Shown: positions 26,938 through 34,998, counted from the first letter of the stretch. The stretch is 64,000 nt of DNA from Gammaproteobacteria bacterium (GCA_029882215.1 JAOULC010000001.1:62001-126000); one strand, 5' to 3'. Numbers and translations are program-made. Notes: generated by a model not told the origin, from the sequence alone.

Positions 26938-27156
26938 TCAAGAAATCGCTCTGGCAGCTTCTACACGCTCCATTAGCACTCCTATTGCCTTTTCATATGA
27001 TGCCTCTGATTTTTCATCGGACATCAACTTTAAACTACGGCGTATATCGAGTTCTGTAATGGGGGTTTCCCGTCCAAACTCATCAACCACTGCCATCACA
27101 GGCCAGCCAGCCTCTGCTTCTGTATACTCATTAACTGCTTCTTGGAAATATGTCAT
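26938..27156 (-). CDS. small acidic protein, unknown (twin A)
   Basis: A 72-aa protein with a strong AGGTGG ribosome-binding site upstream of the ATG at 27156. It has no signal peptide or cysteine. Its last residues read LMERVEAARAIS, closely matching the end of the neighbouring 74-aa protein (LMMKVEAARGVV), while the N-terminal parts differ. The shared terminal motif and tandem placement suggest that both belong to one small-protein family or interact with the same partner. The function is unknown. Confidence 0.6.
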   Translation of the reverse strand: MTYFQEAVNEYTEAEAGWPVMAVVDEFGRETPITELDIRRSLKLMSDEKSEASYEKAIGVLMERVEAARAIS

Positions 27157-27286: not shown

Positions 27287-27511
27287 TCAAACAACACCTC
27301 TGGCCGCTTCGACTTTCATCATCAGGTTTTCCAGCACTTCAGCATAATAATGATGGTGCTTCATCCATACACTCTCAGTTTCTCTCAAGGCCTGCTGTAA
27401 TGAGCTTTCAGAGACCATTGTTTCTGCCCCAAGGCTGAGCAGATCATTAAAACTCAGTGGCTCATTACCGCTGGCTTCTAATGCCATTACATTAGTCTGA
27501 TTTTGAATCAT
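27287..27511 (-). CDS. small acidic protein, unknown (twin B)
   Basis: A 74-aa protein preceded by a good AGGGG ribosome-binding site. The sequence includes LSFNDLLSLGAE, a KHHHYYAEVLENL segment with three His in a row, and the C-terminal LMMKVEAARGVV shared with the gene 130 bases downstream. No signal peptide, membrane helix or cysteine is present. The two genes are probably co-transcribed. Nothing in the sequence shows what the protein does. Confidence 0.6.
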   Translation of the reverse strand: MIQNQTNVMALEASGNEPLSFNDLLSLGAETMVSESSLQQALRETESVWMKHHHYYAEVLENLMMKVEAARGVV

Positions 27512-27967: not shown

Positions 27968-29566
27968 TCACTTCGCACTCAGATTAAGAACAATCCAGAA
28001 CTCCGACCCTTGTCCGTATACACTGCAAACACCAATTTCTCCGTCCATCAAATTAGTCAGCGTTTTAGATATTACCAGACCTATACCTGTACCCTCGATG
28101 GCAGGATCATCATGCACCCGTTCAAAGGGTCGAAAAAGTTTTTCAATTTGCTCTGGCCTGAGTCCGATCCCTGTGTCTTTGACAATGATTTTTATTTTGC
28201 TGTCAGTGACCACCGAACTGACCGTTACGCTGCCATTTTCCTTGTTGTATTTCACTGAATTTGACAGTAAATTGATCATAACCTGTTTAAGTCGCAGGTG
28301 GTTGGCAATAACAGTGTAATCAGCATTAGATAGGTAATTTACAACCTCGATATTTTTACTGACAGCAAGCGGAGCGATCATAACTAAACACTCATCCATC
28401 AAGCACTCCAGCTCAACCGGCTCAAGATCTACCTTAAGATTGCCACCTTCGATTTTTGCAAGATCCAGCACCTCGTTAATCAACGCCAATAAGTGCTCGC
28501 CGGCCATAACAATTTCATCAATGTCGGGTTTTATATCTGTCTTCACACTCGAGGCTTCTAACTGCAGTTGAATGAGCTGCGAGAAACCTAAAATGGCATT
28601 CATTGGGGTACGCAATTCATGGCTCATACGTGACAGAAAGTCAGATTTAGCCCGGTTTGCTGTCTCTGCCCTCAACATAGCTGCCTGTAGTTCTTCTGTT
28701 CTTTCCGCGACCTTAAACTCCAGATCATCATGCGCTTTTTTAACCAGCATTTCTGCCTGCTTTCTATCACTAATATCTCTGCATTCAATAAGCATCATTT
28801 CAATATTACCGTCATGATTGTTTATCGGCTTGATTGACATATCGAACGTGATCATCTTATTCGCACTGTTTTTTATCTGAATTTCATCACGCATAAAGCT
28901 ACCGGCACTAACAGACGGCAACATCTGATTCAGCTTTTCTTTAGTAACCGGACTGCCAGCCCACCATGGGGCATCTTCTAATGCTGCGCCTAAAACATGT
29001 GTGCTCTCAAGATTCCTGAAGTCAAGTGCTACCTGATTAGCCTCGAGCAGTACACCATTACTGTCAGCTAATAGCAGCCATTGGAAAGTCTGCTCAAAGA
29101 CAGCCCTGAATCTTTTTTCAGTTTGTATTCGCTGACGATTCAGATCAACAATCTCGGTTGCTCTGGTAACTGCAACAAGTAATTGTTCCGCATCAACCGG
29201 CTTGTGTAAATAATCATCTGCACCGTGTTTGACAGCTGTCACTGCATATTTTGTTTCACGAAAAGCTGTCATCATAATACAGTACACACCTTCAAACTCC
29301 TGCTTCAGCCATGACAACAAATCAAGGCCACTGTCCTGACCAAGCTTAATATCAAGCAGTGCAATATCAGGTTTAAATTCGTCAACAAGCGAGCGAGCCT
29401 GTTTGAGACCTGAAGCCGTTTTGATGGTATATCTTTCATCATGCATTTCTAAAATAACAGACAGAGAATCTGAAATATCAACTTCATCATCAACAATTAA
29501 TATCCGCACACAATCTACAGAGTCTATAGCAACATAGTTATCTGGAAATTTCACCATTGATTCCAC
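27968..29566 (-). CDS. receiver-PAS-histidine kinase (hybrid with N-terminal receiver)
   Basis: A 532-aa soluble signalling protein. Order: receiver domain about 20-140 with phosphoacceptor Asp72 (LLDIKLG) and KPVD; PAS domain about 155-270 ending in a PAC-like ECRDIS; coiled coil; HisKA with SRMSHELRTPMNAILGFSQL; HATPase_c with N-box, DTGIGL and GTGIGL boxes. It has no membrane segment, so input comes from phosphorylation of its receiver or from the PAS ligand. It follows the tandem-receiver gene of the SBP-kinase cassette in the same direction after about 95 bases, and could be the next step in a phosphorelay. Confidence 0.88.
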   Translation of the reverse strand: MESMVKFPDNYVAIDSVDCVRILIVDDEVDISDSLSVILEMHDERYTIKTASGLKQARSLVDEFKPDIALLDIKLGQDSGLDLLSWLKQEFEGVYCIMMTAFRETKYAVTAVKHGADDYLHKPVDAEQLLVAVTRATEIVDLNRQRIQTEKRFRAVFEQTFQWLLLADSNGVLLEANQVALDFRNLESTHVLGAALEDAPWWAGSPVTKEKLNQMLPSVSAGSFMRDEIQIKNSANKMITFDMSIKPINNHDGNIEMMLIECRDISDRKQAEMLVKKAHDDLEFKVAERTEELQAAMLRAETANRAKSDFLSRMSHELRTPMNAILGFSQLIQLQLEASSVKTDIKPDIDEIVMAGEHLLALINEVLDLAKIEGGNLKVDLEPVELECLMDECLVMIAPLAVSKNIEVVNYLSNADYTVIANHLRLKQVMINLLSNSVKYNKENGSVTVSSVVTDSKIKIIVKDTGIGLRPEQIEKLFRPFERVHDDPAIEGTGIGLVISKTLTNLMDGEIGVCSVYGQGSEFWIVLNLSAK

Positions 29567-29661
29567 CTATTGCGGTTAAAATAAATGTTACTATCCGTAC
29601 ATCTAGACAGCAGACATACACCTTCACCTATAGAACTACTCATAACTCATCCTGTCATTAT

Positions 29662-30378
29662 TCAGTGAGATTCATTTAATATCGCCAGCATAAGATCAGA
29701 ATCAACTGGTTTAAAAAGACAGCCAGACACCGCATAGTCACTGAGTGATGGCTCACACTCTCCATGTTTAAATTGCATATCAATAACTACAATCACTTTT
29801 GAGTGATCCGGTATATCAGGCAATATCGTATCGAGTAACAGCAGAGATTCGATAACCGATGTTTTCTGATAGAGCACCATCACATCTGAGTCACAATATT
29901 TAAAATCACAAGCTGAATCTTTATTTATCTCACAAACTGTTTTCCCTCGGGCAGGATAGTATTCATGAAGGCAGTTTCTTATACTGTCTCCGTCTCCTGC
30001 CAGTAAAATAATTTTATTATTAGGATTGGCATCTGCTTTTTCAAATACCTCATGATCATAAGCCTTCATCTTTACAACAACAGCTGACTGGTTATTATTT
30101 ATCTCAGCTATGATCTGTTCAATCCGGAACCCGGTCATTAAAACTATTTTATAAGTCACATCATGCAGACACTCTCTTAGCACATCAAAACCGCTGGCAT
30201 CCGGCATTTTTATATCTATAAAAGCTGTATCGAAACCACCTTCTTTAAGTTTTTTGATTGCGGCAATACCTGAATACGCCACTTCAACATCATAGCCTTC
30301 CAGTTCAAGTAGCATTGCAACTCCGTCAGCCAGATCTGAATTATCATCTGCGACGAGTATTTTTTTATTAACAATCAT
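29662..30378 (-). CDS. tandem receiver-domain response regulator
   Basis: A 238-aa protein with no recognised output domain. The first receiver (about 4-115) has acidic residues in VADDN and phosphoacceptor Asp55 (FIDIKMP); its last strand reads VVVKMKAYD, so the usual Lys-Pro is altered. The second half (about 120-235) folds like a receiver, with VVIDMQF and CLFKPVD near its end, but lacks a clear acidic pair at its start and looks degenerate. It starts ten bases after the PAS kinase stop. It probably receives phosphate from that kinase and acts by protein contact. Confidence 0.8.
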   Translation of the reverse strand: MIVNKKILVADDNSDLADGVAMLLELEGYDVEVAYSGIAAIKKLKEGGFDTAFIDIKMPDASGFDVLRECLHDVTYKIVLMTGFRIEQIIAEINNNQSAVVVKMKAYDHEVFEKADANPNNKIILLAGDGDSIRNCLHEYYPARGKTVCEINKDSACDFKYCDSDVMVLYQKTSVIESLLLLDTILPDIPDHSKVIVVIDMQFKHGECEPSLSDYAVSGCLFKPVDSDLMLAILNESH

Positions 30379-30388
30379 TTAGTTAGCC

Positions 30389-32752
30389 TTATTTTACAAG
30401 CGGTAACCATAAGATAACTACAGAACCCGTATTAACTGACGAATGAATATCAACTCCTCCATTATGCTGCTGCATGATCTGCATGACTGTTGGCATACCA
30501 AGTCCGACACCGAATCCCTTAGTAGAAAACAACGGCTCAAATATCTTCTGCAAGACCTCATCACTCATTCCACAGCCACTGTCACTGAATACCAGTTCCA
30601 CTCTGTTGCGATTTATTTTTGTACTTATATTAAGAACAGCGTCCTTGATGACTTTATTACCATCAGATTCATCCTGCATAGACTGACATGCATTATCAAA
30701 AACATTAATAACGGCTCTGCGCATCACATCAACATCTAGCATTACCTGTATCTTTTCTAATCCGAATTCTCTTTGGATAGATACACCCGGTAAAATATTT
30801 TGTTCATTAATAACACCATCCAGCCAAAGATCTATCAGGACAGGAGTTAATGCCAGCTTGTCGATTCTGGTAAAGTCCAGCAACTCATCAATAATACGAT
30901 CACATCGACCAATATTTCTTTCAATCCTTTCAATTGCTTGTTGCATTCTTTCATCATCTTTAGCTGATAATTTCTTGACAACGTAAAGAGAAGGTGCCAT
31001 TGCTCCTAGAGGGTTACGCAGCTCATGAGATACAGTTGCAGTCAATTGTCCCAGCGTTGCCAGCCGCTCTTTTTTTATCAGCTCTTGCTGAACACTTTCC
31101 AGCTCTTTTGTTCTTACATCTACAATGTTTTCCAGATTGTCCTTATATATCTCTAGCTCGTTCTGTGCTTTATACTTTTCTGTAATATCAACCCCTATTG
31201 ATACAACGTACTCTACTTCTCCGTTATCATCCAGTAGCGTACTGTTGGCCCAGTCAATGAGAAAACGTTCTCCGCTTTTATTTACCCATTCATTGATGTA
31301 ATATCCGATTTTATGTTCAGGGCTACTGACCAGATCTCTGAATGCATTACAGTATATTTCATCAGAAACTTCCTTAGGCAAAACCGTTTCCCATGGGAAT
31401 TTATTTTTTATCTCTTCAAATGTATAACCACTAATCTTTTCACATGCGTAATTAAAACGAACGATTTGACCTTCCCTGTTAAGTACAAGAATAATGGCGG
31501 CAGCAGAATCCAGTACAGCGTTAATAAAGTTTTTCTCTTTATTCAGCTCCTGACCAATTCTCTTACTTTCTGTTATATCCAGAACTGTACCAATCATGCG
31601 GACTGGATTACCTTTCTGATCCCTGTAGACTTTACCCTGTTCCTGTACATCTCTGACTACTCCGTCAGGATGCACAACCCGGTGCTCAGCAAAATATAAA
31701 GCGGACGGATCCGACACCGCAAGATTAACTGCATCGGTGACAATCGTCTGATCATCCGGATGCACACTGTTTAAAAACGCTTCGTAAGTTGCACCAAACT
31801 CCTGAGGTTTCAGACCGAAAATTCTGTATATCTCATCAGACCAGGTTAAACTGCCATCAGAAATATCCCAGTCCCAGCTTCCTATATGTGCAATCTCCTG
31901 AGCTTTCTTAAACGTTTCTTCACTTCGAGTTACAGCACCCAATAATTTGTTAATATGCTGTTGTTGTTCACTCTTACTTTGCATTCCTGAGGCAACTTCG
32001 TGCCCCATTGATTCAACACCTCTTGCCAGTCTGCCTAATTCATCTTTTCCTGCTACCTGAATATTGATGTCGTAGTTACCTTCACCTATTTTTTTTACTG
32101 CATTAGTAATCACATTCAAGCGTCGAAAGACCAGAACTTGCAACAGACCTCCAAGCACGACAAGACCTATCAGCTGAGAAATACTTAATCTAAACAATAG
32201 TCCAAATGCCGAATCAAACTCTGCTGCTAACTCATATACAATAATCAGCATACCTGATCTGTCTTTTCTAATATTATCTGACCCAGAAAATGCAGCAACA
32301 GGCAGAACTGAGACAATCACCCGCTCGTTATCATTTATCCAAATTTCGCCTTCACTTTTATTTTTGCCAAGACTTATATTGCTTTTAATTCTCTCAACAT
32401 CTGAACTTTTAAAATTTTGCAGAACCTCCCATAGCTTCAGCCCTATCTGGGCCAGCTGAGTAGATGCTCTGACTATATTATTTTTATCTATCAATACAGC
32501 ATGTTTGATATTTTTGTTAATACCTAATTCTGCCAGTTTTACTTTTACCTGTGCTTCATGCTCATATCTCATCAGGTATTCAATATCACCCTGCAGACTA
32601 ACACTGATATTTTTCACATCATGCATTATTGACTGCTTAATATTTTCCTTCTCACTACTATAAATATATGAATCAAGATATAAAATCTGCACAACAGCGG
32701 CCAGAACCAACAAGCCGATAATAAAATTCCGAATTGAATATATTTTATCCAC
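30389..32752 (-). CDS. membrane PAS histidine kinase linked to a substrate-binding protein
   Basis: A 787-aa sensor kinase. Transmembrane helix 1 is at about 9-28, a periplasmic domain of about 150 residues follows, then helix 2 near 183-205, HAMP, two PAS domains (HIGSWDWDI... and LVLNREGQIVRFN...) with PAC motifs, a coiled coil, HisKA (ATVSHELRNPLGAM) and HATPase_c (DSGCGM, GFGVGLGMPT). I start it at GTG 32752, which has GAGG six bases upstream; TTG at 32764 touches the preceding stop. The gene follows the substrate-binding lipoprotein gene with almost no gap, so the lipoprotein may present ligand to the periplasmic domain. Confidence 0.9.
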   Translation of the reverse strand: MDKIYSIRNFIIGLLVLAAVVQILYLDSYIYSSEKENIKQSIMHDVKNISVSLQGDIEYLMRYEHEAQVKVKLAELGINKNIKHAVLIDKNNIVRASTQLAQIGLKLWEVLQNFKSSDVERIKSNISLGKNKSEGEIWINDNERVIVSVLPVAAFSGSDNIRKDRSGMLIIVYELAAEFDSAFGLLFRLSISQLIGLVVLGGLLQVLVFRRLNVITNAVKKIGEGNYDINIQVAGKDELGRLARGVESMGHEVASGMQSKSEQQQHINKLLGAVTRSEETFKKAQEIAHIGSWDWDISDGSLTWSDEIYRIFGLKPQEFGATYEAFLNSVHPDDQTIVTDAVNLAVSDPSALYFAEHRVVHPDGVVRDVQEQGKVYRDQKGNPVRMIGTVLDITESKRIGQELNKEKNFINAVLDSAAAIILVLNREGQIVRFNYACEKISGYTFEEIKNKFPWETVLPKEVSDEIYCNAFRDLVSSPEHKIGYYINEWVNKSGERFLIDWANSTLLDDNGEVEYVVSIGVDITEKYKAQNELEIYKDNLENIVDVRTKELESVQQELIKKERLATLGQLTATVSHELRNPLGAMAPSLYVVKKLSAKDDERMQQAIERIERNIGRCDRIIDELLDFTRIDKLALTPVLIDLWLDGVINEQNILPGVSIQREFGLEKIQVMLDVDVMRRAVINVFDNACQSMQDESDGNKVIKDAVLNISTKINRNRVELVFSDSGCGMSDEVLQKIFEPLFSTKGFGVGLGMPTVMQIMQQHNGGVDIHSSVNTGSVVILWLPLVK

Positions 32753-32764
32753 ACTTAACCTCAA

Positions 32765-33742
32765 TTATTGCGTCAGTATTTCATGACTAATGAGCCTGTC
32801 TATCTCTGCTTCACCATTTATTAATTTCATCTGAATCATTTCTTTTGAAATTTGTTCAATCGATTTTTTTAATTTTGAACTGTTAATATCTTTATTTAAA
32901 AACATCCTGTTTTCCTCTTTGCTAGGAAACTTAACGCCGGAAAACGCATTTATTATGGCTGATTCAGAAAGCCCCAGCCGTTTATTCATAATATCTAATG
33001 ACTCTTTTTTATTGGCTGCCATATATTCAACTGATTTAAACCAGCCATTAATCAGTTTTTTAAGAACCGGCTTGTACTGCTGCAGCTTCTCTTTCCTCAC
33101 CACCAGCACGTCAACCACTTCATCGGGGATTTCCCGGCTGCTAAAAACTTCTTTATAACCCTGCTCAAGCAATCTTGATCTGGCCGGCTCGAATGTAACC
33201 ACGCCATCCACTTTATTATTAATTAAAGCACTCTCAGTTTCATTTACATCCATATCAATCAATTCAACATCTCTACTTGTAAGACCGTTCATTTTAAGTG
33301 CCCTGCTTAATATGTATGCACCCAGAGCAGTATTTTCGTAGCCTATTCTTCTGCCTTTCAATTCCTTTAACGAATTGAATTTTTTATTCGCTATAATTAC
33401 ATCTGCGCCGTTTGATACATCAACTACCAGAAATATACTCGCGTCAAAGCCTTCATCAAGCAATATCATCACTTCGTCAATGGTTAATGCTGCAACGTCA
33501 ATAAGATTATTCTTAAAGGCTCTTAACACCTGAGATGCTGACAGAAACTCAACCAGTTTAATTTCATTACTGTCGATGAAGCCCTTTTCCCGGCCCAGAT
33601 AAAGCGGCTCATAACCGACCCATACGACGGTACCCAGTTTAAGTACCTTTTGTTCATTAGCAGTGCACGACAGCAGCATGAAAGAACATGTCATTATGTA
33701 AAGTACAAAAATAATCTTTTTCAATGTAACCATAGACTTCAT
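32765..33742 (-). CDS. NMT1/SsuA-type substrate-binding lipoprotein
   Basis: A 325-aa periplasmic binding protein of the NitT/TauT/THI5 superfamily. The lipoprotein signal ends LLSC with the lipidated Cys at 26. Family landmarks are LKLGTVVWVGYEPLYLGREKG at about 34-54, DVAALTIDEV near 83, LKELKGRRIGYENTALG around 127-143, and DGVVTFEP. No permease or ATPase gene is adjacent. Instead the gene overlaps the HTH-receiver gene by four bases (ATGA) and abuts a sensor kinase gene. A role in ligand sensing, as with LuxP-LuxQ or TorT-TorS, is more likely than transport, though it could also serve a distant transporter. The ligand is unknown. Confidence 0.85.
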   Translation of the reverse strand: MKSMVTLKKIIFVLYIMTCSFMLLSCTANEQKVLKLGTVVWVGYEPLYLGREKGFIDSNEIKLVEFLSASQVLRAFKNNLIDVAALTIDEVMILLDEGFDASIFLVVDVSNGADVIIANKKFNSLKELKGRRIGYENTALGAYILSRALKMNGLTSRDVELIDMDVNETESALINNKVDGVVTFEPARSRLLEQGYKEVFSSREIPDEVVDVLVVRKEKLQQYKPVLKKLINGWFKSVEYMAANKKESLDIMNKRLGLSESAIINAFSGVKFPSKEENRMFLNKDINSSKLKKSIEQISKEMIQMKLINGEAEIDRLISHEILTQ

Positions 33743-34329
33743 CTCACACCTTGCATATTTGTCAGTTTATGCCTTAACAAGGCTTCTAGTTTTTCAAACT
33801 GAACAGGTTTTTTCATAAAATTCACATTGCTGTTACTAATTTTTTTCATTTTAATACTTTGCAGATCAAGTGCTGTTACCACGATAATATCCGGACTTTT
33901 CTCAGTCTGATCATGTTTAATCGCGCTTAACATCTCAAAACCATCCATATTTGGCATCATCAAATCCGTCATAATGATATCGGGTAAATGTTTACCTATT
34001 TTCAACAATCCATCATAACCATTTTCAGCGGTAACAAGCTTTATCGGCAAATCCAGCATTTCTATTGACAGGCAATACGCATCACGAATATCTTTATCGT
34101 CCTCTACCAGCACCATCACCAGTTCACCATCAGATTCAGACTGCTGCATAGACTCGACTCTCTGCTTAAGAATCTTATCTACCGATTTCATTAATATTCT
34201 GCGATGCCCACCAGCGGTCTTCCACGCCACCAACGTACCGTTTTCCACCCACAACTGAACGGTCCGTAATGACACATCTAATAATTCAGCTGCTTTTCTG
34301 GTCGATAGATAGTTCTCTATTTCGCTCAT
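33739..34329 (-). CDS. HTH-receiver response regulator (excisionase/MerR-type HTH at N-terminus)
   Basis: A 196-aa protein with reversed regulator architecture. Residues 5-58 form a MerR/excisionase-like winged helix (STRKAAELLDVSLRTVQLWVENG, then TAGGHRRI), and a receiver domain fills about 70-190 with VEDDKD, phosphoacceptor Asp122 (MTDLMMP) and KKPV. Most response regulators place the receiver first. It is the first gene of the cassette, and its stop overlaps the lipoprotein start by four bases. It is the obvious DNA-binding output for the neighbouring kinase. An inverted TAATGCC/GGCATTA pair upstream could be its site. Confidence 0.85.
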   Translation of the reverse strand: MSEIENYLSTRKAAELLDVSLRTVQLWVENGTLVAWKTAGGHRRILMKSVDKILKQRVESMQQSESDGELVMVLVEDDKDIRDAYCLSIEMLDLPIKLVTAENGYDGLLKIGKHLPDIIMTDLMMPNMDGFEMLSAIKHDQTEKSPDIIVVTALDLQSIKMKKISNSNVNFMKKPVQFEKLEALLRHKLTNMQGVR

Positions 34330-34967
34330 CTGTTTAATAACTACTCGTTTCTAATTAATGCCTTCTCTCACATGTCAAATAATGGATATCATATTTTTCA
34401 TATTTATCACTTTTACTATTTTAGGCATTATCCTCATATAAACAGATTAAGAGTGTTAATCATTTGTAACAATTGCCTGATTTTTTTCAGCTAAAAAAAA
34501 GCCCCTCACATCTTTAAACGATGGAGAGGCTTTTTTGTCAGCATTTAGAGGTCATAAACAGCTCTTCATGAGCGATTTAATCTTGTTACAGCTTTATCAT
34601 ATTTTCTTAAAATAGAAGTCATATCCATTTTTTTAGTAATGTAATAATTAACTTCTTAATCTTTTGGCTGTTGAAAAATAGCACATTATCAGATCCAGGT
34701 GAGGCTGAAAACTTCTGCTTAAGCGCTCTGATAGTGTGATAAAAGCTTAATAACCTATCTTAAATCAGGCTAACTAAGTTAAAGCGAAAGCCGCTAGTAT
34801 TAATCCTGAATCTGGCAGCTGGGTTATCCGCTAGTACTAGCAAGTCGCCTGTTTCGATATTTATATGCATGTGTGAGTAAAACTAACCAGCTGGGCAGCA
34901 TTAGCCAGGCAGCGATGCCCTTGATTGTATTTGCTCTGTCAGTGAGAAAACATATACCTCTTATGCA
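34330..34967. other. long gene-free interval upstream of the HTH-receiver gene
   Basis: No open reading frame is convincing over about 640 bases. It contains TAATGCC (34356-34362) facing GGCATTA (34434-34440), a TTGACA-like -35 on the minus strand (34373-34378), a strong bidirectional terminator hairpin at 34493-34537, and a 12-bp palindrome GCTAGTACTAGC at 34830-34841. An unrecognised small RNA between 34540 and 34960 is possible. Confidence 0.4.
34493..34537 (-). terminator. orphan intrinsic terminator hairpin
   Basis: An imperfect stem (GCC, CTC and CATC paired with GATG, GAG and GGC, loop about seven) is flanked by an eight-A run on the left and a six-T run on the right, so it could work in either direction. 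No annotated gene ends beside it, which is why an unannotated short transcript is suspected. Confidence 0.6.
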
Positions 34968-34998
34968 ATAAAAAAGCCTGCGAGTAGCAGGCTTTTTT
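34968..34998 (-). terminator. intrinsic terminator of metH
   Basis: AAAAAGCCTGC (34971-34981) pairs with GCAGGCTTTTT (34987-34997) around loop GAGTA. On the minus strand it is followed by a U-rich stretch. It begins three bases after the metH stop codon. Confidence 0.9.

Follow-up and report, generated by a model that had tools for sequence, protein, structure and literature searches.

Sensor kinases and cyclic di-GMP (c-di-GMP) enzymes that are driven by substrate-binding proteins (SBPs) are already known, and their logic is familiar from LuxP-LuxQ, TorT-TorS and NspS-MbaA. In the first two systems a Peripla_BP-type binding protein (LuxP, TorT) without a transporter acts through a kinase with two transmembrane segments (TM), whose periplasmic domain is a tandem PAS in LuxQ and helical in TorS, while NspS is a PotD-like polyamine binder. 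Here we analyse a stretch of 64,000 nucleotides from a Gammaproteobacteria bacterium (GCA_029882215.1 JAOULC010000001.1:62001-126000; the window), in which an NMT1/SsuA-type substrate-binding lipoprotein is encoded directly upstream of a two-TM histidine kinase. We consider it very likely that this SBP is not a transport component but a dedicated co-receptor, which docks on a Cache-like sensor domain and thereby controls exchangeable outputs.

The binding protein of the Vibrio cholerae polyamine receptor NspS-MbaA is reported to adjoin, and act through, a membrane GGDEF/EAL protein (PMC8967002, PMC8079147). A GGDEF/EAL partner is present at about half of our loci too, but the other half have kinase outputs, and their binder is an NMT1/SsuA-type lipoprotein, not a PotD-like one. 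The window locus differs from LuxP-LuxQ in that its SBP belongs to NMT1_2 and its sensor matches no Pfam family. For the AgtS, AruS and BctC partners, an SBP gene likewise lies beside that of a kinase that it may activate (PMC11113362, PMC9602780); these systems, however, use other SBP families and do not form a lineage-wide transporter-less pair, and BctC also works in a transporter. A 2022 survey counted only about ten characterised SBP-activated sensor kinases and considered that more SBP families probably signal (PMC9602780), and a review of c-di-GMP proteins noted that SBP_bac_3 alone has been studied among their PBP-clan domains (PMC8846402). What is new here is the NMT1/SsuA-fold lipoprotein, the unnamed periplasmic domain, the linkage of the two in many phyla and the switching of outputs; no prior description of an NMT1-type SBP-sensor family was found in the open-licence literature searched, beyond which papers could exist.

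Linkage of the lipoprotein to a sensor domain

The features of the locus are the following (REC, receiver domain; HTH, helix-turn-helix):

33739-34329, minus strand: HTH_17-receiver protein (HTH-REC), 196 amino acids, DNA-binding domain first (Pfam HTH_17 1.5e-10, Response_reg 3.2e-17)
33739-33742, minus strand: ATGA overlap between the HTH-REC stop and the SBP start, read from the sequence
32765-33742, minus strand: NMT1/SsuA-type substrate-binding lipoprotein, 325 amino acids (Pfam NMT1_2 1.7e-22, NMT1 1.2e-16)
33665-33667, minus strand: Cys at codon 26 of the SBP, in the lipobox LLSC, read from the sequence
30389-32764, minus strand: two-TM histidine kinase, 791 amino acids (Pfam HAMP, PAS_3, PAS_9, HisKA and HATPase_c)
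32249-32683, minus strand: periplasmic sensor domain of this kinase, about residues 28-172; helices and strands predicted to follow a Cache-like order, no named family in Pfam or NCBIfam
29662-30378, minus strand: receiver protein, 238 amino acids (Pfam Response_reg; C-terminal half without a family)
27968-29566, minus strand: soluble REC-PAS-histidine kinase, 532 amino acids (Pfam Response_reg, PAS, HisKA and HATPase_c)

All five open reading frames (ORFs) of the initial annotation were recovered in the order and place it gave, with Pfam domains in agreement except in the second half of the 238-aa protein, and so were the lipobox and the family of the SBP. As in SBP-dependent sensor kinases, the SBP gene adjoins that of a membrane kinase with an extracytoplasmic domain. 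The permease and ATPase genes that accompany the SBP of an ATP-binding cassette (ABC) importer of the SsuA/TauA/NrtA type are, as had been claimed, missing from its surroundings: by profile matches, the cassette is flanked by metH, an arginyltransferase, a DnaJ-related gene and a DEAD helicase.

A pattern scan of genome contigs with a single protein gave no matches, and the full SBP alignment was too divergent for a pattern search; a closer subset of eight relatives with the motif WPGYEPLYLAR, including an orphan SBP of the window's own genome (L029), made a successful query. Scanning the genomes of 84,980 species returned 205 relatives, of which 80 were kept with no selection on gene neighbours; removal of four duplicates left 76 loci, and 73 were evaluable because three end at a contig edge. 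Record titles place the relatives in the Gamma-, Alpha-, Beta- and Zetaproteobacteria, Nitrospirota, Nitrospinota, Persephonella, Geothrix, Desulfobacterota-type lineages, Spirochaetes, Verrucomicrobia, Lentisphaeria and an anammox lineage, although single phylum assignments may be wrong, since many relatives are metagenome-assembled genomes. A two-TM sensor directly follows the SBP at 68 of the 73 evaluable loci, with a gap of at most 50 bases in 67 of the 68 and a 4-base overlap in 28. One locus scored as a miss (L111) has a sensor ORF right behind the SBP that was lost in the automatic gene selection. Culturable carriers of an SBP-sensor pair include Marinobacterium, Neptunomonas and Geothrix. 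The outputs of the 68 sensors are a kinase in 30 cases, GGDEF/EAL in 31 and not called in 7, and the partner common to both types of output is one periplasmic domain of about 155 residues.

Many of these loci also went into the sensor profile, which makes independent tests of the linkage important. With the window sensor alone as query against the small set of sensor segments, phmmer retrieved 61 of the 85 others at E ≤0.0004. In the reverse direction, an SBP lies immediately upstream in 27 of 32 strong sensor-domain matches examined in 274 genomes of the class. The window's genome itself gives three strong matches to the sensor profile, exactly the three partners of an SBP (the window kinase and two further SBP-sensor pairs, L030 and L031), the next match being about 30 orders weaker. 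The linkage of lipoprotein and sensor that was read from one locus is thus conserved when searched from either side.

Given its transport-type fold, the SBP could also work for an ABC importer whose genes lie elsewhere; its position next to the kinase would then reflect joint regulation of uptake and sensing. The window's genome does have NMT1-type SBPs with permease and ATPase genes next to them in three places (L032-L034), but each of these importers has an adjoining SBP of its own, and an SsuC-type permease occurs at none of the 76 relatives within the DNA fetched around each locus. We regard a distant importer as highly improbable, also in view of the tree and co-variation results below. 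Nor do we give much credence to a dual role, in which the SBP would signal through the kinase and deliver its ligand to a distant permease: there is a precedent in BctC, which belongs to a transporter and activates a sensor kinase as well (PMC9602780), but none of the relatives surveyed has a linked permease, which makes this reading very unlikely.

The boundary of the family was explored in a PF13379 sample of 40 loci. The SBPs closest to the profile (E <1e-85) all precede a two-TM sensor; those with E from 1e-58 to 1e-76 are mixed, with a permease-linked uca group (L251, L258, L261, L272), two orphans and two sensor-linked proteins; more distant SBPs are mostly permease-linked, several lying beside kinases or GGDEF proteins with other sensors. 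Six distant NMT1-type SBPs (L246, L247, L255, L273, L276, L277) are found beside membrane kinases or GGDEF proteins that do not have the sensor domain of the family. Since such SBPs adjoin other sensors, the pairing of SBP and sensor was apparently gained or lost on more than one occasion.

Structure, co-variation and points against docking

The predicted model of the SBP (predicted local distance difference test, pLDDT, 91.6) has TauA and SsuA as its best matches among solved structures. Its scores stay under the curated cutoffs of the transporter models that it resembles; as an example, it reaches 122.1 bits against TIGR01728 (SsuA), whose cutoff is 163.5 bits. The sensor domain matches no consistent Pfam or NCBIfam family (one weak dCache_3 and one weak sCache_3_2 match among 80 members), and its profile finds nothing significant among PDB sequences (best E 0.4-1.8). 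In the predicted model, TM1 of the sensor runs on into a long helix, and alpha, beta-beta, alpha-alpha, beta-beta-beta and TM2 follow, a Cache-like order.

Because the SBP and the kinase lie in one frame, a single SBP-sensor chain could be modelled, in natural order, by reading the TAA between them as Gln; the AlphaFold2 alignment held 18 other in-frame pair loci joined in the same way, plus unpaired rows. The read-through chain was predicted with pLDDT 92.2 (below 50 in the linker, 301-312) and a predicted template modelling score (pTM) of 0.87, compared with about 0.6 estimated for two parts in no defined position to each other, and on this ground the relative placement of SBP and sensor is confidently predicted. 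The co-fold suggested in the initial annotation therefore gave a predicted placement, in a read-through chain run with no control.

In the SBP tree nearly all sensor-linked proteins form one group (Shimodaira-Hasegawa approximate likelihood ratio test 91, 95 rows), and the permease-linked uca proteins branch just outside it (98); this is a quick tree, in which long branches are unsure. Output type switches at least 17 times on it. The pairwise distances of the SBPs are correlated to those of the sensor domains (r=0.59) and not to those of the kinase cores of the same polypeptides (r=0.08; partial SBP-kinase correlation 0.002). After thinning to <45% SBP identity, the SBP-sensor correlation is 0.38 (10 of 5000 permutations as high) and the SBP-kinase core correlation is −0.02. 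The sensors are more diverged (mean identity 18%) than the kinase cores (30%), yet it is the sensors that the SBP distances track. Both the separate clustering of sensor-linked and permease-linked SBPs and the fact that SBPs co-vary with the sensor domain and not with the kinase core argue against an importer encoded elsewhere. Conservation of the SBP columns is far above that of the sensor columns, as expected if ligand specificity resides in the SBP.

Several observations weigh against the SBP as a docking co-receptor. Five of the 32 strong sensor-domain matches have no SBP within about 1.5 kb, and the window's genome holds an orphan fourth SBP of the family (L029:12817-13764, 43% identical) with neither permease nor sensor adjoining. 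The modelled chain is topologically unnatural, in that it joins a periplasmic C-terminus to a cytoplasmic N-terminus across the membrane, and its reading consists of the pTM and pLDDT of one run, without negative control, coordinates or predicted aligned error. Finally, among 83 sensor-linked SBPs with a lipobox Cys, Asp is present at position +2 in just 5, and most have a tether of 10-11 residues before the first strand. By the +2 rule, lipoproteins without Asp at this position would be sorted to the outer membrane, from where an SBP tethered so closely would have little chance of touching a sensor in the inner membrane. This leaves two options: the rule does not apply to the sensor-linked SBPs, or their geometry is unusual.

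In another genome (G081), a sensor domain without an adjoining SBP (L220) is accompanied on a different contig by an NMT1-type SBP with neither permease nor sensor (L259), perhaps an unlinked pair.

Candidate ligand and mechanism

The nearest sequence relatives among permease-linked proteins are the TIGR03427-like uca SBPs (L032, L251, L258), which have a DxSxGxD motif and acidic residues in common with the window family, but differ from it in having an adjoining permease and ATPase, different cleft residues and no lipobox Cys at the aligned position. These relatives are guanidine-linked: L032 has a guanidine-II riboswitch together with genes for urea/guanidine carboxylase, and L258 and L251 lie behind guanidine-I riboswitches (for background on the pathway, see PMC12186494). 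D108, D114, E136, D211 and an acid at position 90 are common to the window SBP and the guanidine-linked SBPs and are not found in SsuA-like SBPs. The linkage of the nearest transporter relatives and the common acidic cleft make a small organic cation a candidate ligand, to which residue comparison weakly points. That the family senses guanidine itself, or a guanidinium-like cation or close analogue, we consider unlikely: it would agree with the riboswitch and carboxylase loci and with the acidic residues, but other cleft positions differ (Y44/W, L47/W, Y48/E, D89/G, A142/H), and a guanidine riboswitch is present neither in the window nor at any of 14 sensor loci, each covered over about 20 kb. 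It is unlikely, too, that these are phylum-spanning extracytoplasmic receptors for a guanidinium-like metabolite, in which a relative of importer SBPs lost its permease, gained a new Cache-like partner and plugs into kinases or c-di-GMP enzymes.

For the co-receptor reading, the following sequence of events may be envisaged. The SBP would bind a small molecule in the periplasm, ligand dependence being presumed, and dock on the product of the next gene downstream, the kinase, at its Cache-like periplasmic domain, a step for which the conserved pairing, the co-variation and the predicted complex speak. By analogy with known SBP-dependent kinases, docking of the loaded or empty SBP would change the TM2-HAMP-PAS-PAS relay and hence the kinase/phosphatase state. 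Phosphate would then pass to the neighbouring receivers, with HTH-REC as the putative gene-expression output, and the REC protein and the REC-PAS-kinase as a probable relay or branch of phosphate flow. In relatives the same SBP-sensor input would drive c-di-GMP enzymes; since the survey shows it wired to these enzymes, what is conserved is the input module, and the output can be exchanged.

The ligand-sensing unit proposed initially holds up in its linkage, its lack of permeases and its predicted placement, but was drawn too narrowly: what is conserved is the SBP with one periplasmic domain, and about half of the loci are of the GGDEF/EAL type. The proposal that HTH-REC is its output stands as regards presence of the gene in the window and in two genomes of the same genus (L035, L036), and not as regards membership of the conserved core. 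A family of this kind would add a large group, recognised across many phyla by gene linkage, in which signalling has replaced transport, with one periplasmic domain as partner and outputs exchanged. It would make the SBP and sensor a defined pair of domains for ligand screens and co-crystallisation, and give grounds to re-annotate many proteins now called ABC transporter substrate-binding proteins.

Local gene arrangement and related loci

L035 and L036 keep the order HTH-REC, SBP, kinase, REC-PAS-kinase, with the 238-aa gene absent and GGDEF genes flanking the cassette on both sides. Identity to the window is 50-51% for the SBP, 58-59% for the kinase and 56-58% for the REC-PAS-kinase, and since the same order is kept in both, the arrangement is not due to chance. 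A further locus (L159) has the order HTH-REC, PAS-PAS-kinase, REC, REC-PAS-kinase without an SBP; its kinase is soluble and 43% identical to the cytoplasmic part of the window kinase. Given this phosphorelay without an SBP, the window locus looks like the same relay fitted with an extracytoplasmic input module. HTH_17-REC was also considered as the defining partner of the SBP and rejected, because it occurs without an SBP and most SBP pairs occur without it; it is a local companion, outside the conserved core.

As to gene spacing, the ten-base gap between the kinase and the 238-aa REC gene is real, and so is the ATGA overlap, which suggests translational coupling of HTH-REC and SBP. The near-zero gap between SBP and kinase is doubtful. 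It requires a TTG start at 32764, while an alternative GTG four codons downstream (32752-32750) is preceded by GAGG at a distance of six bases and would set the kinase 12 bases from the SBP, as in L035; the TTG may therefore not be the start used, and GTG 32752 may be used instead. The 238-aa protein had been called a tandem receiver, and this description fits its first half (Response_reg); the second half matches no Pfam family.

A promoter and terminator scan of the window gave counts that differ from those of shuffled sequence by no more than about one standard deviation, and an Rfam scan of the window gave no match. By eye, a terminator-like hairpin with a T-run that the scan did not list is found at 34491-34535 on the minus strand, some 160 bases upstream of where HTH-REC starts; it is distinct from the metH terminator near 34965-34998 and may act as an attenuator or terminate a short transcript.

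Near the SBP-sensor pair of four loci (L031, L045, L049, L040), either divergent from it or upstream of it, lie the genes of an ABC system, a possible regulated target of the pair: two permease-like proteins with 4 TM each, an ATPase, and a protein with one TM; by eye the system is FtsX/MacB-like. Past the second kinase of the window there are two small minus-strand ORFs, 27287-27511 (74 aa) and 26938-27156 (72 aa), both ending in a VEAAR motif; relatives of the 74-aa ORF are confined to the same genus, on contigs other than that of the cassette.

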